The position numbers were made by a program, and so were the translations under genes. The notes beneath the pieces are model-generated. The model did not search any database and was not told the DNA's origin. It was given only the letters and a program-made list of their open reading frames with translations. Below, piece by piece: positions 13,001 to 57,711 of a stretch of 64,000 nucleotides of DNA (the first letter of the stretch is position 1; each line of letters begins with the position of its first letter). This stretch comes from Brachionus manjavacas (taxonomy: Eukaryota > Rotifera > Eurotatoria > Ploima > Brachionidae), in the NCBI GenBank assembly GCA_019054805.1, contig JAHQIY010000005.1, forward strand, positions 1,595,501-1,659,500, written 5' to 3'.

Positions 13001-16000
13001 ATCTGATTGATTATTTTTTAAGATGTTCAAGAATATTTTAATAAATGACTGTCGAATAGAGTCTAAAACTTTAGAGCAAATTTTTCCAGATCTTGAAAGA
13101 CTCATGGATTTGCATAAAGTTTTGTTGGATCAATTAATTGACCGGTACAGGTCCAGCAAAAATAAATATATCGACTACATTGGTGACATTCTCTCAAATA
13201 TTGTAATTATTCATTCACAAAATTCAATTTTTTTTTAAATTTATGTAATTTTTTTTTCAATAGTTAAGTGAAAAAAATGAAATGTGGGTTTCGTTGTACA
13301 GTAAAGTTTGCTGCTCACATGTAACAGCAAAACAGACTTTCAAACAATTAAGCACATCTAATAAAGCCGTAGCATCATTTTCGATCGAAATATCCAAGCA
13401 TTCTTGGTTGAAAAGATACCACATTCCGGATTGCCTGACTATCATTACTCAACGTTTAACCAAGTATTTAACATTGATTGAAAACATACTTACAAATAGC
13501 CAAGACGACAAGGTCGAGATCGATCTGTTGAACAAATCGTTGGAAAATTTGAGATCTATCCTAAGCAGAGTCAATGACGCAGTTGCATTTTATCAAAATT
13601 ATAATGAATTTAAAAAATACCTGGACAATTTTGATCAAAAATCGCATACTAAATCTTTTGTCAAATATGAGAAAAATATCGAGGAGCGAGCCTTTACGGT
13701 AATTTTTTACTTTTCAATAAACATTTAAAAAATAGCAAAAAGATTTCTAAGAAAAAATTAATTCGGATAAGAATTTAAAACACATAAAAAGGGGAATTAA
13801 TTAGACAAAAATTAAAAAATTTATGTATTTTGACACCTTTTTTTTAATTTTTATTTCTTATCTTAAAAGTCCCGATAAATATTTATTTTAAATTCTATTT
13901 AAAAAGAGTTAAAAAATAGCTAAAGGGAAAAAAGGACCCCTGAAATAGTAAATTTAGAGCTTGAGTTTTCAAATGAATATAATAAAATGACAAGATGTTT
14001 TTCATTACAGAAACACTTTACATTGATCATTTTTATTAAATTTATTAGATTGAAATATCAAATATTAACAATTTAACAAAAATATATTTAAGATATTAAG
14101 AAAAAGGGAAATATTTTGACTAGAAATTTTTTTTTATATCCAAATTTTAAATTGTCTGACGGACATTAAAAATGAAGCTTTTAATAATTTATTAATTTGA
14201 ATAATTAATCTTCAAATCTAACTAGTTAAAAAATTCAAGTGTGCAAAAAATTTAGCTTACCTTCTAGTACTCTAGACAGTTTTTGAAACTAATATACTTA
14301 ACTTTGGAGAATTCCCTCAAAGAATATATCACTTATTTAGGGTCAATATTTAAGAGAATATTTAATTCTGAAAATCACGGTACAAAAAAATATAACAATA
14401 AATTAATGAAATAAATTTAAATGAAAAAACCCTAGGAAAAATTAAAAAATATTTAATAAGTTCTATTTTTGGCTTTAAATACTTAATAGGCTTTTAACAG
14501 TCTCGAGTCTTTTGAAATGAGTGAAAGATAGGTTTAGGCAGGATTGAGTGATTCTCTTTCATTAGCTGCCAAACTGGTGGAAGAATATAACAAAGGTTTC
14601 GAATCAAGATATTTCGAGTGTTCGACTTGATTGTGCAATTGCTATCTTATAATTTCTTCTTTTTTTACTGAAACTTCAATTATTTAAATTTTGTTTTACT
14701 TAATAACTAATCTTAATATTTATTTTACTTTATCTTTTTACTTTATCTTTTACTTTGTTTTTTTTTAATTTCATTTTATTAAAAAATTTTCGATTTTTAT
14801 TTCAAATTTTATTCTTAAGGAGCTTTAGCTCGGTACAGATAAACTAATGAAAAAAATTAACTTTCCTAATTTAAAATGTTTAGCATGTGAAATCACTTTT
14901 TTCAAATTCTATTTATTATTTTGTCTACCTTCATTTTGTAATAATAAAATATATGATAAGATTAAATTTTAAAATACTCGGAATAACAAAACCCTGAGCT
15001 TGAGACTTTAATCATTTGACTCAGTTAAATTAGATGAATCTAATTATTTTCTTTAAAAAATTAATGAATCAAATCTGTATATTGTTAAATTTTCAGGATA
15101 AAAATTAGGTAAAAATACAAGAATTTTTAATTTAGTGCCATAATTAATGGAGAGGTTTAATAACTTTGAATTCAAGATTTAAATCTGAATTTTGAAAAGA
15201 ATAATGATTATCTAAAATAATGAAAAGTTCTGTAAAATAAAAAATAATTTATTTCAAGAAAAATTGAAATTAAGGAATTCTCAAAGCAAACTTTTTTCCT
15301 TATAAATACCGTCTTAATTTTCAAGTGTTAGAAAGTTAGGTTTTTGCATAATAGATTATTATATATAAAATAATTTCACAAAAAATGAATCCAAACACAA
15401 TCCTTAATCAATCTGTTTACTTAGAATTTTATTTTTAATAATTAGAAGAAAATCTAAAAATAAAATTTAACAAGTCATAAGACATCGTTTAAAATGATAT
15501 GGAAACTCTAATATAAAATTTGGCATTAATCAATGATCAAAAAGGTAAAATATAATCATCAAATAAACCATTAAAAAAATTCAAAATCTGTATGGTTTCA
15601 AAAAAACCTCACAGAATTGTTTTTGTGATAATTTTCATACAAATTATCCTGCTATTTTTAAATAATCGCTCGTTTATTTCAAGGTTTTAGAGATATTTGT
15701 TATATTAATTTCTTTTTTTTTAGAAATCAGATTTGACGAGTAAACCAAATCGAAAAATAATCAGCCTTAATCAGGTAACAGTAAAAGTGATGTCAATGAA
15801 AGGCAAAGAATACAAAAATGTTACTTGTGTTACTATGAATGATATGATTGTTTTCCTTCAATACAATGAAAAATCATCCAAATATACATTTATGAATGAT
15901 ACAGTAATTTTATTTATTTTTTAATTTTAATAAAAAAAAATTATAAAAATTCTCAATTTTTAAAGAAAAGTGTAATTATTTGCAATTATGGTATACTAAT

Positions 16001-19905: not shown

Positions 19906-20032
19906 CAAGACCCAAAGCCTCTTCTACAATTAATAAATGACAACCTTGGTTCATCCCTCAGCTTTGAAATTGAACAAATGCTCTTCGCTAAATCAGATGA
20001 TCAAGATCTGAACATGAACAATACAATGGAAG

Positions 20033-20722
20033 ATGAAAATGAACAATTCTAAATTTTTAAAGATTTTGCATCTCAACTGTCAATCTATTCAAAGCGACTC
20101 AAAAAAAATTCAAATTTTTGATTTAATTAACCGGACTAACTGCGATGTCCTGAGTCTAAATGAAACTTTTCTCAAAAAAGATAACAATTTAAATTTTAAT
20201 GGCTATTTAACTCTACGATCAGACAGAATTGAAAAAAAAGGTGGTGGATCAGCTTTATGTATTAAAAAATCAATAAAAGGTTCTCCAATTAAAACAGACA
20301 ATTTTCCTGAAACTGTTGGTTACAAAATCAATTTAAAACATGGGAATGAGCTAGCATTATTTTCGCATTACTCTAGCCCATCCACTGAACTCAACGAAAA
20401 ACTTTTTGAATATGCCACTAATAACTTCAAATCTTTCATAATAGTTGGTGATTTTAATGCATGGAATTCAAACTGGTTTTGTCTTAAATCCAACAAAAAA
20501 GGAAATGTTTTGCTTTCTACGATTGAGAAACTGGATCTATTTATATTGAATAACGAGACACCAACATACAAGAGAAGTAAGAATATTCTTGATCTTTTTA
20601 TATGCTCCAAAAACATGTTAGAAAATTTCGAAAAATTTGAAGTACTTCCTGCCTCAATAAGTTACCACCTACCAATATCAGCCAGCTTCAAAAATATTTC
20701 AACTGATCCAAAAATTTTTTGA
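20033..20722 (+). pseudogene. LINE apurinic-like endonuclease domain
   Basis: Exonuclease-endonuclease-phosphatase fold: LHLNCQSIQS (N-terminal LNCxS), LSLNETFL (catalytic ET), FIIVGDFNAWNSNW (GDFN), LDLFICS (near-terminal D) and SYHLPISASF (terminal SxHxP). The order is that of LINE endonucleases. The frame continues into the reverse transcriptase only after a shift and a stop, so the polyprotein is broken. Confidence 0.88.
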
Positions 20723-21255
20723 AACAATTAATTGGCATAAATTTAGAGAAGTTCTTAGATCTAAACCACCACTAAATTACCCTTTACTCTGTCCAAAAAT
20801 TATTGACACATAAGTCCAAAATTTGACAAATGATATCCAGGAAGTCATAAAAATCGCTAATGATCGATACGAAATAAAAAACTTTAAAAACAATAAATTA
20901 GCGGTTCCTTATCACATTCTCAAGCTAATAAATTTCAAGAGAAAAATCAGACGGTTGGTTCAAAAACACAACAATCCAGCACACAAAAAATTATTTAACT
21001 ATCTTGAACGTAATTTGAAATTGGAGCTATCTAGACATAAAAATCATATTCTTGAAGACAAACTAACTTTTCTGAAAGAGTTCAATCAATCGGAATCGAA
21101 GCATTGGCAAGCACTTCTGAGCATAAATAAGGAAAATAAAAGTAAAAAAAATTTTTAAATCTGAGAAATGATAACCATTCTACCACCGATCCAGCCGAAA
21201 TTGCAGAATTATTTGCATTGATTTAGAAAACATTTTTACTGATAGTCAAACATCC

Positions 21256-23330
21256 GTGAGACAAGGCTCGTCTATCTTTCCAATAGGAAGCTATATGCAT
21301 ATAACTAGAAAAGAAATGATGAAAACGCTAAAAACAACCAAATCAAGAGCAGCAGCTGGTTTTGATCTAATATCCAACAAGGTATGTAAAAATCTCCCTT
21401 TTCCAAAACTTGTTGAAATACACAAAATATTCAACAGCTCTCTTAATCATGGCCACATACCCTCAATTTGGAAAAAATTAAAAATTATCATGATTCTTAA
21501 AAAAAATAAACCTCCAGATAGTATAGACTCTTACAGGCCTATCTCCCTCCTCAGTTGCTTAGCCAAATGGCTCGAAAAAATTGTAAATCAAAAGATTCAA
21601 GACTGTGCAGAAAACTCAAAAATTCTCCCAACTTGTCAGTCTGGCTTCAGAAAATCCAAAAGGACCCAATATCACATATTGAGATTAAACCAATCAATAG
21701 CAGATGGATTCAACCGCAATCAACTAACAGGAGCTATCTTCTTCGATCTTGAGAAAGCCTTTGATAACACATCACACAATGGTATAATTGCAAAATTAAA
21801 AGAACACAATCTTCATAGAATATTTCTCCAATGGATTGAAGACTTTCTCACAAACCGCTCTTTCAGAGTCAGCTATAATGGCCAGACTTCAAAAGATAAG
21901 TTTATTAAATGTGGAGTCCCTCAGGGAAGTTGCCTATCCCCTACCATTTTTATTCTGTTTTTTAGCGATATAGCCAATAGTATTCCTCCTGATGTAAAAA
22001 TAGCCTTGTTCGCAGATGACCTTTGTATCTGGGTATCCAGGACCAGTAAAAAGGAAATTCAAATAATTCTTCAAAAGGCAGTGAATAGAATCATTGAGTA
22101 CTGCAAAAAATGGGGATTCAAAATTAACGAAAAAAAAACTTGCTACACAACATTTCCCAAAGCTGGACTTCGAAAAAATTATGAGAAAAGATATGGAATG
22201 AAAATAAAAATTGGGAACTCACATATTCCTCTTGACCCAAATCCAACATTCCTTGGTATTAAACTAGATCCCAAAATCAAATTCAAAGAACATTTGAAAA
22301 TTATCAATTCAAATGTCAATTCAGCGATTAATGATATTTAACGATCGTCGATTTTCGATTATTTTAAGATTTTAATCGATTAATCGTCGATTTAATCGCC
22401 CGAAAATGCATACAAAAAAAATTTTTTTTGTTGAATGAAAACTTTGTTTAAACAAATTAGAAAAAATTAGATTTAATTGACATAAATTCTTGATAGTGAT
22501 CAGCTTTTAAATGGTTCCATAAATTTGTAGTATTGTTTTTTCTCAAAATTGATGAATCTTTCTCTGTTTTAGTTTATAGGCATATTTGACAGATACCGAT
22601 GGTCGGATTGTCAGAATTCAATTTAAAATGTCTCCAAACAAGAGAAGAAAAAGGTGAACTCATATTTATTTTGACAAAAACTGACAAAAATTTGAATAAT
22701 TGAATACACAAAAACTAAATTGAAAAACTAATTGAACGAATTTTATGTGAATTTTTTATAATAGAAAAAAGAAGCGCCAAAATTCATGATAAGAAAATTT
22801 AGAATTGATATTAATTGATCGCGATTTTGGACATCATGATCGATCGATTTCGATTTGAAAAATCGCGCGCGATTAATCGCGATTAATCGAAATCGCTGCA
22901 ACACTAATTCAAAACAAATTTCCAAAATAAACCTAATCAGGAAAATTAAAAGTTTTAAATGGAGATCATCTTTTAAAATCAACATAATTTTATACATGTC
23001 GCTCATACGATCATTATTCGATTACTGTTTTATAATACTTCAGTCAGGCACTCAGAACATAAGAGCCGAAATGCAAAAAATGCAAAATCGAGTGTTGCGA
23101 ATCATAAAGTATTTTCCACTAAAGACAAGTATCAAAACAATCAATTAAGAGCTAAGAATCGACTTGATTGATGACAGAGCAAACAAGCTTTTTTCTAAAT
23201 TTATCACCACAAGGCAAAGCCATGAAATAATAGCTCAGGAGATCCAGGACTTTCTGCTTCAAAACTCCTCCAGAAACAATTTAAAGTACAAAACACCCTT
23301 TGATTCAGTCATTAACACGCCAAACTCTTA
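21256..23330 (+). pseudogene. LINE reverse transcriptase, interrupted by a MITE
   Basis: RT blocks: SRAAAGFDLISN, SYRPISLLSCLAKWLEKI, GAIFFDLEKAFDNTSHN, KCGVPQGSCLSPTIFILF and the catalytic IALFADDLCIW (FADD variant of YADD). The frame is open to 22323, cut by 582 bp of unrelated DNA, and resumes at 22912 as KQISKINLIRKIKSFKWRSS with a LINE-typical C-terminus (YMSLIRSLFDY) and a stop near 23144. CR1/Jockey type by motif style. Confidence 0.9.
22324..22905. mobile_element. MITE in the LINE reverse transcriptase, AATTCA target duplication
   Basis: 582 bp flanked by AATTCA at 22318-22323 and 22906-22911. Removing the insert plus one AATTCA restores the LINE reading frame across the site, which fixes the borders. 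Both ends are built from CGATTAATCG / CGATTTCGATT words; the right end reads ...GCTGCAACACT, reminiscent of hAT termini (CAGTGTTGC). It has no coding capacity. hAT assignment is tentative because hAT duplications are normally 8 bp. Confidence 0.75.
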
Positions 23331-23516
23331 GCAAAAATTTAATTTAACAATTTATATATAATCTTTTATATGCAATTTATATAATTATACACATATGATT
23401 AATACATATCTTAATCATATTGCAACCATGTGGGCTGAAAAGAAGGCTCTGCCATTCGGAACTGCCCTTGAAAAAACTTTTCCTAAATTATTTTTTTAAT
23501 AATAAATAAATAATTC

Positions 23517-23760
23517 ATAAAATAGAAATGAAGAAAATTAAAAAAATTTAATTGAGATTTTTTTCGGATCAGATTCTTCAATTTTTTCAAAAAATTGTTT
23601 TTTATTGGCATAATATATGTAATAAAATAGAGAAATCGTATAATTTTAACAATACCTCTAGGTCTTTACTTAGATTTTGATTGAAATTTTCATCATTTGG
23701 AACTCTTTTTCTACATTACCTTGTCAATTTTATTTTTAACTTTAATTTTCTATTTAATCG
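23517..23760 (+). repeat. Duplicated segment, copy 1, continuation after the LINE
   Basis: Starts TTCATAAAATAGAAATGAAG and aligns with 40072-40310 at lower identity than the first block. It marks the 3' border of the LINE and shows that the duplication reached well into the intron. Confidence 0.8.
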
Positions 23761-24532
23761 ATGAGATGACATTAATTTGAGTCTTTGAATATGTTGATTT
23801 TACTCTTGATTTTTTAAGAACATTTTTTAGAATATAAAAAGTAGCTTAAGTTGACATGATAGGGTTGCTAGTGTTACTCCTAAAGTTATTTGCTAGCAAC
23901 AACACGTTTAAGTAAATAACCCTTAAATTCGTAAAAATGAAAACATCAAACATCTATTTTAATTTGTTTGGCAATAGTACTAAATGTGCAATATATTTCA
24001 GCATTTTGTTATTAAAGAAAGATTCCATTAAAATAGTTAACTTGATAGACTTAGAAAGCTCTTCATATTTCTTGAGTTAATTTTTTTTAGTTTTTTTTCT
24101 ACATTATTCATTTTTTATTTCATTATAAGAATCAATAATTTTGTCAAGGTAATTTTTTTTAATTTTTATATTTTAATTTTTTGATCATAATGAGGATTTT
24201 ATCTTGTAATTTATTGAAAGCTTTTCTAAAAAAAAATTTTTATTTTTTTTTCCAATTTTAAACAAGATTCTAAATGGAATGAACTATTTCATTAAATCAT
24301 ATGAATTTATCTATGCATAAAATTCTGATTTAATCAATAAAAATTTAGGCTTAAGCTATTTGAGAGGAAAAAAATTTCGTTATTTGCTTAAAAATAAGCT
24401 TTTACCTCCTAAGACATTGAAATAGGGTAGTTTACTTATTTATTTGAATTTTTTTACCAACCGTAAGAGTTTATATATTTATATAAAAATTAAAAAATAT
24501 TGTTGTTCATTCTTTAATTTAAACATATTAGA
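23761..24532 (+). other. Upstream region of the deaminase gene
   Basis: A+T-rich with no gene seen. A TATA-like run TTTATATATTTATATAAA sits at about 24470-24487, 46-63 nt before the start codon, and could be a core promoter, though such words are frequent by chance at this base composition. Confidence 0.4.
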
Positions 24533-26089
24533 ATGAATTTTGATTTGATTGTTATTGGAATAATTTGTCCAATTGGTAGTGATAAAAAAGAAATTTACCG
24601 ATTTTTTGATCAAAAGGCAAATAATTACAAATATGATGTGAAAATTATTATACTCAGAAAATTCTTGGAACGCCTTACTGAAAAAAAGTACCAAAGTTCG
24701 CAAACAAAAAATCCAGAATATTATGAAGAGCTGATGAATGTAGCAAACAACTTTAGGAGTAACACTAGCAACACTATCATGTCAACTTTAGCTACTTGTG
24801 ATATTTTAAACGATGTTCTTGAAAAATCAAGAGAAAAATCAATACATTCAAATACTCAAATTTATGTCATCTCATCGATTAAGTATCAAGAAGACATAGA
24901 TGAATTAAAGCGAATTTTCGGACTTAATTTTTTCATTATTGGATGTGGATCTTCAAAGAGACCAGAAATAAACCAAAGTAATACCGAAAAATTAGATGAA
25001 TTATTTAAGAAAGACAAAATAAAAAAAAATTTTGAAAAGAGTGATTTATTTTTAGATCTTGACGATAAAACGATGAAAGAGAATTTAGAAAGATTTTTTT
25101 ATCTAATTTTCTCTAATCCATTTTGTACACCAACTAAAGACGAATATTTTATGTCACTGGCATACAATGTTGCTTCAAGATCATCCTCTCTGAACAGACA
25201 AGTTGGAGCTATAATAGTATCTAACGATTATGACATTCTTTCTGTTGGATGTAATGAAGTTCCTAAAAAAGGTGGAGGTCAATATTGGAATTCTGATGTA
25301 AATGATTCACGAGAATTTAAAATCATGAGAAAATATGGACTAAAATTGGACTCTAACAAGAATGAAATAGAAAAATTGAAACAAAGTTTGAATAACAAAA
25401 TTTCTGGTGGAAATAATGGTCAGAATTCCGATTTGATTGATCACATTTCGAAAAGTATTGATGAGTCCGAGATAAGCGACTTGATTGAATTTTATAGAGA
25501 GGAGCATGCTGAAGAAGAGGCTTTAATTGCCTGTGCTCGGAATGGTAACATGACAAAACAATCAATACTTTATTGCACAGCATTTCCATGTCATTTGTGT
25601 ATAAAGAAGATAATAGCTTCTGGAATTGAAAAAGTGATCTACATTGAACCATATCCAAAAAGCAAAATACATCTATTTCAAGATTCAGTTAAAATTAATG
25701 ATTCTTTAACTAATTCTAGAAGTGAAGAATCTTCTACGGAAGAGAAAGTTATTTTTGAACAATTTAAAGGTGTAGGTCCAAATAGATATCAAGATTTTTT
25801 TTCTTTGAATTTATCCAATGGAATCAGGCTTAAACGAACAGCGGCTGATATATTCAAGGCAGAATCAAGTTTTACAACTCCCAGAATGCACAAAACAAGC
25901 TTTCTAAATCTAATTGCTAATTTTTTTGAAAAGTATACACCTTTTGATCCGTCTAAAATTGAAAATCTTGATGAACGGAGAATTATTTCAGAATTAAAAG
26001 AAAAGATTGATAAATTAGAGAAAATTTTTGAAGATATGAAAAGATGTTTTATCGAAACAAATAAAAATTTTATCAAAAAAAAACCTTAA
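24533..26089 (+). CDS. avcD/dcdV-like: AvcD/DcdV-like anti-phage dCTP/dCMP deaminase (bacterial type), intact and intronless
   Basis: 518 codons, one exon. Residues 1-170 form an alpha/beta domain starting LIVIGIICPIGSDKKEI, matching the P-loop-like start (IGLVGPVGTDL type) of bacterial AvcD/DcdV. Walker A is non-canonical (no GK[ST]). Residues 190-440 are a deoxycytidylate deaminase: NPFCTPTKDEYFMSLAYNVA, RQVGAIIVSNDYDILSVGCN, EVPKKGGGQYW, zinc ligands H325-A-E327 and P352-C353-x2-C356, then YIEPYPKSKIH, and FKGVGPNRYQDFF with the NGIRLKR tail. A lysine-rich coiled helix (478-518) closes it. In bacteria such enzymes deaminate dC nucleotides and drain dCTP on phage infection; AvcD is held off by a small RNA, AvcI. 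No stops, frameshifts or introns; AATAAA follows at 26178-26183. The neighbours are transposons. Family call strong; activity and role here unknown. Confidence 0.88.
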   Translation: MNFDLIVIGIICPIGSDKKEIYRFFDQKANNYKYDVKIIILRKFLERLTEKKYQSSQTKNPEYYEELMNVANNFRSNTSNTIMSTLATCDILNDVLEKSREKSIHSNTQIYVISSIKYQEDIDELKRIFGLNFFIIGCGSSKRPEINQSNTEKLDELFKKDKIKKNFEKSDLFLDLDDKTMKENLERFFYLIFSNPFCTPTKDEYFMSLAYNVASRSSSLNRQVGAIIVSNDYDILSVGCNEVPKKGGGQYWNSDVNDSREFKIMRKYGLKLDSNKNEIEKLKQSLNNKISGGNNGQNSDLIDHISKSIDESEISDLIEFYREEHAEEEALIACARNGNMTKQSILYCTAFPCHLCIKKIIASGIEKVIYIEPYPKSKIHLFQDSVKINDSLTNSRSEESSTEEKVIFEQFKGVGPNRYQDFFSLNLSNGIRLKRTAADIFKAESSFTTPRMHKTSFLNLIANFFEKYTPFDPSKIENLDERRIISELKEKIDKLEKIFEDMKRCFIETNKNFIKKKP

Positions 26090-26190: not shown

Positions 26191-26837
26191 TTTAAAAAAA
26201 TACTTTTTTTACATTATTTAAAAAACGCTGACTAAACAGAGACTTGCAGATTTTGGTTTACAACCACGTCCAAATAAATTTCAATTTAAAATCTTGCGAA
26301 ATATTAAATGAATTAAAATGAAATTTTCTGGAAAAATTAATTTTATTTTGAAAAAACTTAAGATAAAAATTAAGTCTTATCATACACCTAAAATTTAATT
26401 GGAACAATTTTTTAAAACTTGATGCTTTAACGTAAACTTGAATTTTTGTTTTAATTTATTGCTTTTAATTTTGAATATTAAATAAAGAAAATTAAATAAG
26501 TGGATTTCAAGTTTTTTCTCATGTTGCTTTTTAATCTATAAGAATATTATTTTCTAAAATTTTCTTCGGAAAAAATTAAATAAAAAACTTTTTGATAAAA
26601 ATGGATTAGCCGATCGAGACCGATGAAGCTAGTTAAATCCTTTATCTTAATCAAACTTTCTCCTGGAACTGTTTACAAAATTTTATTAGAATTTAAGACA
26701 TCTGAAAGTTTGTTTACTCAAAACATTAAAAAAGTTAAAAATGGATTTTTTTTTATACTCTCCAAAAAAAACAAGTAAATAAATTATCAAAAAACAAAAT
26801 ATAATTTTTTTTCCAAAATAATTTCTAATTGATTAAG

Positions 26838-27768: not shown

Positions 27769-27945
27769 GGTTGTCCCTAAAAGGCGGAATGCGGAAAACG
27801 GAATTCCACAGGCCAAATTCCGCTAAAATTTTTCAAAAAAAATCCGCAAAATTACCTACTTAAAAGAATTTCCGGAATTTCCGCTTTTTAGTAGCAAGTT
27901 AAATTCCAGCGGAATTTGTCTTGCGGAATAAAAAAAATTTAAAAA
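27769..27945 (+). repeat. MULE left terminal inverted repeat
   Basis: GC-richer than its surroundings and built around GCGGAA/TTCCGC words. It pairs with 31028-31158. The left copy has an extra block of about 40 nt in the middle (containing TTCCGGAATTTCCGC); the right copy has an extra AATGCGG unit. The inner arm ATTCCAGCGGAATTTGTCTT is shared by both. Confidence 0.9.
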
Positions 27946-28122
27946 AAATTTGTTAAAACGTTAATAAAGTAATTTGAAATTTGAAAATGTTCTATAATTG
28001 TTGTAATTTAAATAAAAGTTAAACTTTGTTTGCCTGAATCTCACAATATTACATAACAAGTTATTAAAATTAAAATTAAAAATAATTAGAGATTTGAGAA
28101 TACTTAACCTAAATAACCAAAA

Positions 28123-30914
28123 ATGATCGTGTTTTCCACTGAACATAATCGATTATGTTATGATTATGTTCAACAAATATTCACTGATTTTCAACCTGAG
28201 CAAAAAAACATACTCATGAGATAAAATTTCCTGAATCAGGTATATTTAACCGTAAATAATAAATATATTTAATAATAATAATTAAATATATTTGTAAGGC
28301 GATGTATTGTTATATTGGACTAACAGTCCTGAAAAATACAATGACTGGTCAAGAGATGGATTTAAATGGCGAAATCAAGGTGCCAAAAAAGCCCTTGTAC
28401 CAACCTCAAGTGATGGTCCATTAATTTATAAAAGCTATCATCATCTTAAAATGCCAGATATGTCCATCAATAAAAACGTGATAAAAAATGTATATTATTA
28501 TCAGGATCAAGAAACACCGATAATTATACACTACTTGGACAAAAACAAACCAGATGAAAATGTCTTGATAGAATACGAATCAGGACCACATGGCAATACC
28601 TAAGATAAAAACAATGCCGAAATTTATCAAAGAGTATTGCCACCCGTTTTAAGTCAAATAAAAGAGAGAGTAACCAAAAAAGCACCAAATTTAGTTTACA
28701 AAGAGTCTTTAAAAAAAAAAGGACCAAGAGACTTAAAGCAATGCCAAAACTTACGCTATGTATATTTACTAAATTTTTCTTATTTGTCTAATTTATTTTA
28801 ATTTGAATTTTATAAAAATATTTTAAGGCTGTGAATAAACTTAAAAGATTTACATATGACGAAATTGCAAATTGTCATTTGATGCATATCTCGTTAGGCT
28901 TTCCAAATTTGATTTTAAGAGCTCCTGACATAAGAATAATATGCATTGATGATGATTTGTTACAAGAGACAAAAAAAGCAATGAATGCTTTTGATTCTGA
29001 AAACAGAACATGTTTTCAATTCGATACTACATTTAATATGACTGGCTATTATGTATCCGTGCTGTCATATATACATCCAATTCTAGTACACAATAACTCA
29101 GAAAAAGCTCCTTCTGTAGTTTTAGCATTTTTTCTACACGAAAAGAAGTTTGAAAGGTCTCACAATGAGTTCTGGCGATACATGAGTGAAGTACTACCTG
29201 AGTTGAGTGAATTAGGATATATTGTTACCGATTCTGAAGATGCTTTTAGGAACGCAATTAAAAGATACTTTCCAAATGTACCTCTTCTCAGGTGTTGGAA
29301 CCACTTTTGGAAGTCTACAGAGCGGTGGATAATTAGTAACAAAAAATTGTCAACAGACGACGTTGGATTCTATTGTGACTCGTTACGTGAGTTATTTTTA
29401 CAACCTAATAAAAATTTGTTCGATTCACAACTAGACAAAAAAAAAACAGGCTATACAAATAGTTCGGGTCAGTTGATTCCAGCTTGGAGACAAGAATTCA
29501 TCGATTATTTCAACAAATGTATTATGCCAGACATTGAAGGTTTAGCCGCATACTCAGTAAAACCTATTGCTAAAAGATTTTTTAATCATTTCACTGGGAT
29601 TACTACAAACCAAATTGAAGGGCTTAATAACTTATTAAAGTTAATTTGTGATAGAGTAGAATTGCCTTTAGACGTGGTAATTCTTGGTTTAAACCAGTTA
29701 TCAGTTTATTATTGTAATGAGATCAAGTTTGGCTTTGGTAATCGTGGTAATTACCGATAGAGACCGGAATTTAAAGAAAAATGTTTTTTAGACACTTGGT
29801 TCATCAACACCAGAGAAACAATGGAACCATCAGAAATTGTAAAATCTTTGATAGCTCATAAAAATGAGCTTTTACAGTCATGTGGTGTAAAATTTACAAC
29901 AATTAGTAACAGTGAAAATAGTTCGATTGAAAGTGATCTCGAAACTATTGCGTCAAGTAAATTACCAAGTTTATCAAACAGTTTAATTGAAGCAAACGAT
30001 GATCCGCAGTCTTCTTTTTGTGAGATCTACTTTAAATGATAATGTTCTAAATGTTCATGTTGAAAATGATGATGTATCGCAAAAGACATTAACCCAGTCA
30101 ACAAAAACATCTTCAACGCTTAACGCCATTACATCTAATACATCTGACGATGATGATTCTGATATAGAAAATTCACCATTCGAGCTTAGAAATCGTTATA
30201 ACTCTAAAATAAGTAGGGCATTATAGTTTGTAAATAATGGCAAAGTAAAGCTTGACACTGCCTTAAAAATTTACTTTGTCACTGACGAAAAAAACAACTG
30301 CTACCAAGTAAAACTACTCCCAAAAGCAACATGTACATGCTTAGAGAAGAATTCTTGTTGTCACATATTGGCTGTACAATCAATAAATGGAATTGAACCA
30401 GCATATAAAATACCTAATCTCACAGATTTAACAAAGGCCAAAAATTCTGGAATTACTGGAAGAAAAAAAAAAGGCCATTTGGTAAATTCAGTGGAGCCTA
30501 AAACTAGTACAAGTTCAGCAATTGATAGAAGCTGTGAATTACTGTAAAAAGAAATATTAATAGAAAACTTTCATGGTGATATTGCTGGTATTCTTGCTAA
30601 GACTGTATTAATAAAGAAAAATATGTTAATGATTTTAGTGTGCTTAGTGACAAATTTCTTAATGTAGATTTTGGGAAGTTAGAGACTTTTTTAAATAAAA
30701 TAAAATGGATAACTATTAAAACTTTAATTGAGGAGAAAAATAAGCATTGTATTTGTCCTATTTGCTCGATTATTTGCTAGGAACATTCTATCGAGTGTGA
30801 AAATTGCAAATTTTGGTATCACTTTGATTGTGGTAAAGTAAGTCGATACCATAGATCTGGCAAAAGTAAGTCTTGGATTTGTGAGAAATATGGCTTTAAA
30901 TGTATTAATAATTA
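28123..30914 (+). pseudogene. MULE transposase: CG-1-like/DW domain, MULE catalytic core, SWIM, PHD-like finger
   Basis: Exons 28123-28239, 28299-28758 and 28828 onward (short introns, phase kept). N-terminal domain DWSRDGFKWRNQGAKK ... IIIHYLDK ... GPHGN. The core at 28831-29757 has FDTTFNMTGYYVSVLSY (first Asp), VTDSEDAFRNAI (second Asp), LLRCWNHFWKST (CxxH) and ITTNQIEGLNNLLK (Glu). Then come an acidic linker, SWIM finger CTCLEKNSCCHILAVQ (about 30330-30376) and a C-terminal C-x2-C...C-x2-C...WYHFDC zinc finger of PHD type (about 30750-30910). Stops at 28601, 29758, 30224, 30544 and about 30778, a shift near 30000 and one in the first exon make it a pseudogene. Confidence 0.85.
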
Positions 30915-31027
30915 AACTTTATTAAATTATTTATTATAATCGACTAAATTAAACATGTTTATTATTAACATTTTATTATATAAGAAAGTAATATTAATAA
31001 AAAATGTATTAATAAATTTAATTTTTT

Positions 31028-31158
31028 TTTATTCCGCAAGACAAATTCCGCTGGAATTTAAAAATCTATTTTGCGGAATTTTTTAGAAAAGTTTTAGCGG
31101 AATTTGGCCTGCGGAATTCCGTTTTCCGCATTCCGCATTCCGCCTTTTAGGGACAACC
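31028..31158 (-). repeat. MULE right terminal inverted repeat
   Basis: Inverted counterpart of 27769-27945, ending ...CCTTTTAGGGACAACC. It keeps the outer 80-odd bp and the inner ATTCCGCAAGACAAATTCCG arm. Confidence 0.9.
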
Positions 31159-56386: not shown

Positions 56387-56407
56387 ATGATCTAAATTAT
56401 TTGCACA
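56375..56407 (+). promoter_or_regulatory. Acceptor-like tract and two-codon uORF before the Ig gene start
   Basis: T8CAG ends at 56386. Immediately after it comes ATG ATC TAA (56387-56395), in frame with but upstream of the chosen ATG at 56408. The stop excludes coding sequence joined from further upstream in this frame, so 56408 is the likely start and a 5' non-coding exon is probably spliced on here. A minimal uORF this close could lower translation. Confidence 0.5.
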
Positions 56408-57711
56408 ATGAATTTGAAAATTTTAACTTTAAATTTGTATAATATTTTCTTGTGTACAGCTACATATCTCATGCCTACGTTCGATCGCGCCTTCGAAAAT
56501 CTCACAGTAATTATAGGAAATTCTGCCACTTTGCCATGTTTCATCACAAATCTAGGCGACCATAAAGTAGCATGGATTAAAGTGTCAAATATGGACATTT
56601 TGACCATTGGTGATTACAAAGTCACAAATGACGATCGGATCAGGCTTCCTCAGGGATATGTTTCAGACTGGTCACTGTCAATCAGTTCAATTAACGAAGA
56701 TGATGCCGGCGAATACATTTGCCAAGTAAACACCGAACCTCAAATTATATCAAAAATATTCCTCAATGTTCAACGTAAGGGCTTAAAATCATAAAATAAT
56801 TAAAGAATTAATTTTTTGTTTTAGTTCCACCAAAAATAATAGAAGAAAGGTCGACCATTAACCCATCTCCGATAAAAGAAGGCGAAGATCTGAGGCTTTA
56901 TTGTCATGCAGAAGGCATACCTGTCCCTCAGGTGTCATGGTTTTTCCGCAAAATACGCATTAGAAATGAAAGAGTTTTCATCCAAAATCCTAAGACTTAT
57001 GACCATGTAATTCATGAAGGCGATACATTGGTTATTCGAAATATTTCACGGCATCACACCGGAGTATATGAGTGTATTGCTAACAATTCTGTTTTGCCAG
57101 CGGCTTCGAGAAAAATAAAGGTATCTGTTGAATTCGGACCAGAAGTGCAAACAGAATCAAAAATTGAACAATTTCGTGGAATGGATGCTCGACTTGAGTG
57201 CAAGATAAAATCAAATCCTTTAATAAACCACTACTGGATGAAGGGAGATCATGTAATTGTAAATGGAATTGATAGAAAAGAAAAATATGATTTTGCTATT
57301 TTTAGTCACAGTGACTATGTGACAATTAGTATTTTGGTAATTAAAAATTTAACTTCGAATGACTATGGCAAATATGAATGCTTTGCTATTAATGGAAAAA
57401 CCGCCTCTAAGTCTGAAATTTTTTTGGATGAGTTAGTCTTGCGACATTTTACATCACCAAGGCCTATAGTCTCCAGGATAATGGTCTATCAAGACAAATT
57501 TACAATTAGTGGGTCTACGCATGTTAAATTGCATCGAAAAAATTCCAATTCGTCTAAATTAATCAAAGACACTAAAGTTTCTGATGAAGAATATCTAAAT
57601 AGAATTTTTAACAAACAAGATAATTTTCTATCCGTTTCGTCGCACATTAATTCAAAATTTTTTTGCTTAATTGGTCTAACTATTTGCTTTATAATAAATT
57701 TTAAACAGTAA
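56408..57711 (+). CDS. Three-Ig-domain cell-surface adhesion protein, DIP/lachesin/IgLON type
   Basis: Two exons, 56408-56774 and 56825-57711, joined in phase 1, give 417 residues. Signal-peptide-like start MNLKILTLNLYNIFLCTATY. Ig1: C44, W56 (KVAWIKVSNMDILTIGDYKV), DDAGEYICQV with C105. The text VAWIKV...ILTI...DDRIRL...GEYICQVNTEP follows the first domain of Drosophila DIP and lachesin proteins. Ig2: LRLYCHAEGIPVPQVSWFF ... HTGVYECIANN. Ig3: ARLECKIKSNPLINHYWMKG ... NDYGKYECFAING. The C-terminal hydrophobic segment FFCLIGLTICFIINFKQ fits a GPI-anchor signal or a single short membrane segment. Such proteins mediate homophilic or Dpr/DIP-like contacts in nervous tissue. Family strong, orthology within it not resolved. 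Confidence 0.9.

Follow-up and report, generated by a model that had tools for sequence, protein, structure and literature searches.

How does an animal chromosome come to carry an intact gene of a bacterial anti-phage type, and what might the gene do there? The question is raised by a locus of the rotifer Brachionus manjavacas, analysed here within a stretch of 64,000 nucleotides (the window), which spans positions 1,595,501-1,659,500 of the 6.97-Mb contig C5 (6,969,864 nt) in an assembly of 114 Mb and 61 contigs. According to excerpts of PMC10511110 and PMC12409362, bacterial AvcD deaminates dCTP and dCMP and is restrained by an RNA, AvcI, which is lost when a phage shuts off transcription. 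The original prediction placed an intact AvcD/DcdV-like gene in this animal DNA and named kinship with ordinary dCMP deaminases, a contaminant contig join and neutral evolution as findings that would speak against it. From the evidence presented here, we consider it probable that an ancestor of Brachionus-like rotifers took up a bacterial AvcD/DcdV-type gene into its germ line and that the gene was then kept as a working one with a deaminase role. The gene and its parts are as follows.

24533-26089, forward strand: AvcD/DcdV-like deoxycytidine-nucleotide deaminase gene, a single open frame of 518 aa (ORF, motif and profile-search evidence)
24533-25117, forward strand: N-terminal domain, residues 1-195, with the GIICPIGSD loop kept, without the Walker lysine, and with the Gly-Gln block deleted at about residue 161
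25118-25852, forward strand: zinc deaminase domain with the family blocks, residues 196-440, its limits placed by eye on the alignment
25505-25513, forward strand: HAE catalytic motif, residues 325-327
25586-25600, forward strand: PCHLC zinc-ligand motif, residues 352-356

The gene runs from an ATG through 518 uninterrupted codons, and its frame extends just five codons upstream of that ATG. Among 100 stretches of 64 kb simulated from the window's dinucleotide transition frequencies, the maximum for a stop-to-stop ORF was 167 codons. A protein search of the whole genome recovered one full copy and a 58-codon inverted fragment just upstream. The translation contains NPFCTPTKDEYF, EVPKKGGGQYW, HAE (325-327), PCHLC (352-356), YIEPYPKSKI and GVGPNRYQDFF, which are all of the motifs and blocks quoted for it originally.

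The protein matches the PADLOC dCTPase model over residues 4-469 (377.7 bits, E=3.5e-113) and NCBIfam NF041025 (anti-phage dCTP deaminase) over residues 6-425 (335.8 bits), and Pfam detects the zinc deaminase domain alone (PF00383, residues 201-371); these matches agree with the two-domain plan first proposed. The expected hit to the anti-phage dCTP deaminase model was found, but it falls under the NF041025 equivalog cut-off of 400 bits. That cut-off was also missed by all five other animal-like rows tested (P0002 and P0003 being N-terminally short) and was passed by all four bacterial control rows; P0025 scored 389.9 bits. Because its score lies under the NCBI cut-off, the window protein is better described as a derived lineage of the AvcD/DcdV family than as an equivalog.

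Conservation was assessed in alignment A4, which holds 116 of 159 proteins. Here, "bacterial-type" denotes the 106 rows, mostly metagenome proteins, outside P0001 (the window protein), its nearest relatives P0002 and P0003, six animal-like rows, and P0025. Of the 92 columns that 85% or more of the bacterial-type rows conserve, the window protein keeps 72, including HAE and PCxxC. HxE is present in 103/106 and PCxxC in 106/106 of these rows, where the window protein has H325 A326 E327 and P352 C353 C356; the HAEM found in 95% of them is HAEE in the window protein. The Gly-Gln of the N-terminal domain (105/106) lies in a block that is deleted in P0001, P0002, and P0003, retained in P0004, P0005, P0006, and P0122, and, by eye, missing from the basal row P0160. 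The N-terminal segment had been called P-loop-like, a description that fits poorly, as GIICPIGSD departs from the canonical Walker A and no such motif occurs elsewhere in the window protein. GxxxxGK[ST] occurs anywhere in just one of the bacterial-type rows, and since the other 105 are also without it, Walker A is not defining for these relatives. The family profile additionally picks up 3lw7 and 3h0k, two chains that resemble adenylate kinase (E 1.4e-4), and a sequence search for a family member with a solved structure found none.

Judged from its sequence, the window protein is kin to AvcD/DcdV but is not an unmodified bacterial AvcD. It resembles the bacterial proteins (the AvcID type III toxin-antitoxin; PADLOC dCTPase; NF041025) in both domains, the private blocks, HAE, PCxxC, and its nesting in the tree. 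It differs from them in its animal chromosome, the deleted Gly-Gln block, HAEE for HAEM, and the score below the equivalog cut-off.

PF00383 is common to the window protein, ordinary animal dCMP deaminases and CDADC1 relatives, but it is scarcely credible that the protein is one of these. The PDB deoxycytidylate deaminase 2w4l gives 36.3 bits and CDADC1 21.9 bits against the window protein, in the deaminase domain alone, versus 377.7 bits near full length for the anti-phage model. The host has a separate, ordinary dCMP deaminase gene on contig C8, in two pieces of one frame divided by a short stretch that contains a stop and reads as an intron; the exons match 2w4l best (107.2 and 94.1 bits). 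The rooted tree described below sets this enzyme apart from the window protein, and with the profile scores it led us to reject the ordinary-enzyme identity; the suspected kinship was not borne out. Animal DCTD shares the zinc-deaminase superfamily (PF00383) with the window protein but is short and single-domain, and CDADC1, a dCTP deaminase of animals, has a predicted overlap in substrate with the window protein. CDADC1 presumably arose from a DCTD-like precursor in vertebrates, according to excerpts of PMC12088426 and PMC12184417, and an excerpt of the latter denies homology between CDADC1 and the bacterial anti-phage enzymes.

Around the gene, the window contains the following features.

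13011-13725, forward strand: RhoGEF-domain exon-like ORFs, from an animal gene to the left
20018-22341, forward strand: LINE remnant with endonuclease and reverse transcriptase ORFs
22906-23513, no strand assigned: host interspersed repeat to the left of the deaminase gene, recurring on many other contigs
23751-23895, reverse strand: inverted partial gene copy of 145 nt, matching codons ~70-118 (24741-24885) with 90% identity and an in-frame TAA
26276-26828, no strand assigned: host repeat fragment to the right of the deaminase gene, 88% identical to three copies on C4
27781-27943, forward strand: left inverted-repeat segments of a MULE-type element, with right arms within 31017-31139
28816-30544, forward strand: MULE-type transposase remnant whose MULE and SWIM domains fall in different ORFs
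56396-57708, forward strand: immunoglobulin-domain exon-like ORFs, from an animal gene to the right

The left repeat is 608 bases long, stops 1.0 kb short of the gene, and has at least 46 copies among the matches listed (best 40 of 295 candidates). The right repeat begins 187 bases past the stop codon and has at least 76 copies among the matches listed (best 40 of 3017 candidates). PAN-domain ORFs are also found to the right, and the RhoGEF, immunoglobulin, and PAN genes each appear as several separate exon-like ORFs, consistent with the intron-bearing neighbours first described; the LINE endonuclease and reverse transcriptase, the MULE-type element, and the repeats likewise confirm the transposon nest. 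Because its neighbours are of animal type and its flanking repeats are common to many contigs, we conclude that the gene belongs to the animal chromosome.

The fragment at 26276-26828 belongs to a repeat at C4:2097000-2106900 (L111) that recurs at ~9.2-kb spacing, with at least three copies among the matches listed, and holds gag-like ORFs. The MULE-type element spans 27781-31139, with inverted-repeat arms 93-98% identical and a transposase that is split across several ORFs and includes a SWIM finger. Carriage of the deaminase gene as MULE cargo was rejected, since the arms (within 27781-27943 and 31017-31139) do not enclose it.

Contig C45 holds a full-length 16S gene of bacterial or plastid type (C45:135960-137516), C21 holds bacterial-looking TadA-, dCMP deaminase-, and cytidine deaminase-like genes, and C42 holds a RibD-like one. 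The assembly thus seems to contain some non-host contigs, from a symbiont or food organism, which would fit bacterial contamination or a chimeric contig. Against this very improbable explanation stand the host repeats within 187 bases and 1.0 kb of the gene, with no copy on C21, C42, or C45 among the matches listed (best 40 candidates each); the inverted, decayed gene copy alongside; and the relatives, of which the closest named one is from Brachionus calyciflorus. A contaminant join was rejected on the repeats that lie on both sides of the gene.

The inverted fragment lies 845 nt upstream of its matching segment and has 15 differences from it, including the in-frame stop. A copy has had time to decay, so the locus appears to have resided in the genome for at least that long. 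In the predicted fold, the inverted 145-nt copy pairs back on the gene; we draw no conclusion from the fold energy, for which the shuffle control extends only to 1000 bases. We speculate that a transcript starting upstream would form a long hairpin, possibly a hairpin RNA directed against the gene.

Relatives were collected from protein searches (best 120 of 480, 120 of 462, and 120 of 6541) and a genome scan (best 80 of 565 loci). The nearest is P0002, with 62% identity over 81%, and the B. calyciflorus protein P0003 has 55% identity over 61% (both among the matches listed, best 120 of 480). P0003 is already in databases under the name "dCMP deaminase," so the window gene is not the sole animal copy. 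B. calyciflorus is the sole named organism among the animal-like rows (among the matches listed, best 120 of 480 and 120 of 462). About nine monogonont rotifer assemblies have a G+C content of 24.95-31.14%, according to excerpts of PMC11954553, and the window resembles them in this. Named bacterial rows reach 34% identity (best 120 of 480 listed), and bacterial loci 36% (best 80 of 565).

A FastTree phylogeny was built from 159/159 proteins and 83/84 family loci (L087, with no usable frame, was left out), along with a 76-row tree (44/159 proteins and 32/84 loci), an 80-row tree (60/278 proteins and 20/84 loci), and a tree of 35/278 proteins and 15/85 loci rooted on two ordinary dCMP deaminase outgroups. 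P0001, P0002, and P0003 form one clade in the 76-row and 80-row trees (100/100), joined there by six metagenomic rows at 100/96 and 100/99, respectively. In the 80-row tree, a group made up of those nine, P0025 with its long branch, and three basal rows is set apart from the other 67 at 100/96; the deeper joins of the 76-row tree are weaker (91/65 and 84/92). The rooted tree, into which three rows were entered whole and uncropped, places 12 animal-like rows in a clade (97/99) nested in the bacterial family at 99/89, 92/83, and 89/90, with an order of P0001-P0003 that differs from the other two trees. With ordinary dCMP deaminases as the root, the animal-like clade lies within the bacterial family, which points to an old transfer from bacteria. 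On these sequences, the pattern is that of one bacterial-to-eukaryote transfer, with the long branch of one outgroup (6.04) as a caveat.

Two pairs of metagenomic proteins, P0123 with P0004 and P0005 with P0122, match closely up to a point and then diverge abruptly, like exons from genomic DNA. As exons of intron-bearing genes would part in this way, other eukaryotes with the gene are suggested; we infer only from such sequences that P0004-P0006, P0012, P0013, P0122, P0123, P0160, and P0161 are eukaryotic. A viral vehicle was rejected on searches of limited sensitivity, in which IMG/VR gave four relatives at 28-35% and a phage collection two records below 30%; the viral relatives L014, L015, and L017 fall among bacterial-type rows in the 76-row tree. 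A plasmid search returned 54 records, all below 60% identity to the deaminase, including one E. coli plasmid (L098), which is in the rooted tree and was left out of the 76-row and 80-row trees.

Constraint was assessed at the protein level. P0001 and P0002 are identical at 78/82 family-conserved columns versus 192/348 others (Fisher p 1.2e-13), P0004 and P0006 at 83/91 versus 212/386, and P0001 and P0003 at 60/80 versus 120/282. Since sites conserved in bacteria barely differ between P0001 and P0002, purifying selection in the new host is indicated, and neutral evolution is disfavoured at this level (4/82 versus 156/348 differences). P0003 shares the window protein's clade, but unlike it is a 371-aa model on a long branch, with HEE for HAE and without the YPKSK and GVGP blocks, and it keeps 54/92 family-conserved positions. 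The B. calyciflorus gene or its model looks eroded, which may reflect erosion, a shift in function, or a faulty gene model. Both P0002 and P0003 start at the residue matching M83, so their N-terminal domain may have been split off or lost.

These data also bear on the reading that the gene is decaying after its horizontal acquisition, intact here by chance or recency and degrading in its kin. The state of the B. calyciflorus model at HAE, YPKSK, and GVGP would fit decay, as would the adjoining inverted debris and the transposon-rich setting. We nevertheless regard it as unlikely, given 518 open codons in AT-rich DNA against a maximum of 167 in the simulations and the strong excess conservation at family sites in both P0001/P0002 and P0004/P0006.

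If a bacterial gene was acquired and kept as proposed, its product would most likely deaminate dCTP and/or dCMP at the HAE/PCxxC zinc site, judging by family and motifs, so that dC nucleotides would be lowered and dU nucleotides raised. Deamination of dC nucleotides is our best guess because the catalytic set is retained. The labile RNA antitoxin control was probably not transferred. In contrast to the AvcID system, no RNA antitoxin was found beside the window gene in an Rfam scan of the window, which gave no match at the gathering threshold (AvcI itself may have no Rfam family). The N-terminal domain would have been reshaped through deletion of the Gly-Gln block. Without AvcI and with that domain reshaped, control in the animal would have to differ, by expression, allostery, or RNAi.

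As a use for the enzyme, we tentatively put first a conditional restriction in which DNA viruses or retroelements would be starved in their DNA synthesis, and a defence role would be plausible. The more specific proposal seems rather doubtful to us, namely, that a domesticated effector without its RNA antitoxin and part of its N-terminal domain came to restrict DNA viruses or retroelements in an inducible, cell-autonomous manner under new control, a functional parallel to SAMHD1 reached by horizontal transfer. The main alternative to such restriction is a role in nucleotide pools or stress: it is quite possible that the gene was acquired and kept for dUMP supply, or for dCTP trimming when the animal desiccates or its resting eggs lie dormant, and plays no part against viruses. 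Retention of the catalytic residues while the N-terminal Gly-Gln block was lost would suit this alternative. On the other side, the bacterial relatives that have been studied work in defence, and supply seems covered by the host dCMP deaminase and by a match on contig C10 (33.2 bits) to PF22769, which we take to be the dUTPase superfamily. Dcd-type dCTP deaminases have a different, dUTPase-like fold. Those of social amoebae resemble the window gene as prokaryotic-like enzymes acquired by eukaryotes, and their discussion in terms of dTTP synthesis in an excerpt of PMC10733785 offers a precedent for a pool enzyme. Vertebrate CDADC1 offers another, since it deaminates dCTP with an unclear role, according to an excerpt of PMC12088426.

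A review from 2024 on the immune modules that different forms of life have in common (PMC11249213) nowhere uses the word "deaminase." A literature search, which reached few subscription papers, found no paper on an animal AvcD among the matches listed. The abstract of a 2021 preprint reportedly mentioned homologues that bacteria and eukaryotes both conserve; that eukaryotes have such genes at all is thus likely not new. What appear new are the animal locus, its nesting in bacteria, the selection pattern, and the altered N-terminal domain.

With the Gly-Gln block lost and the RNA antitoxin probably absent, the question arises of how a toxic nucleotide-depleting enzyme would be restrained in an animal cell. 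Rotifers can be cultured, so whether the borrowed enzyme restricts viruses or transposons is directly testable in the animal. If the proposal is true, the gene would add to the bacterial immune enzymes that animals have acquired, in this instance an enzyme of the dC-nucleotide-depleting kind, and a bacterial means of depriving viruses of DNA precursors may have passed to animals.
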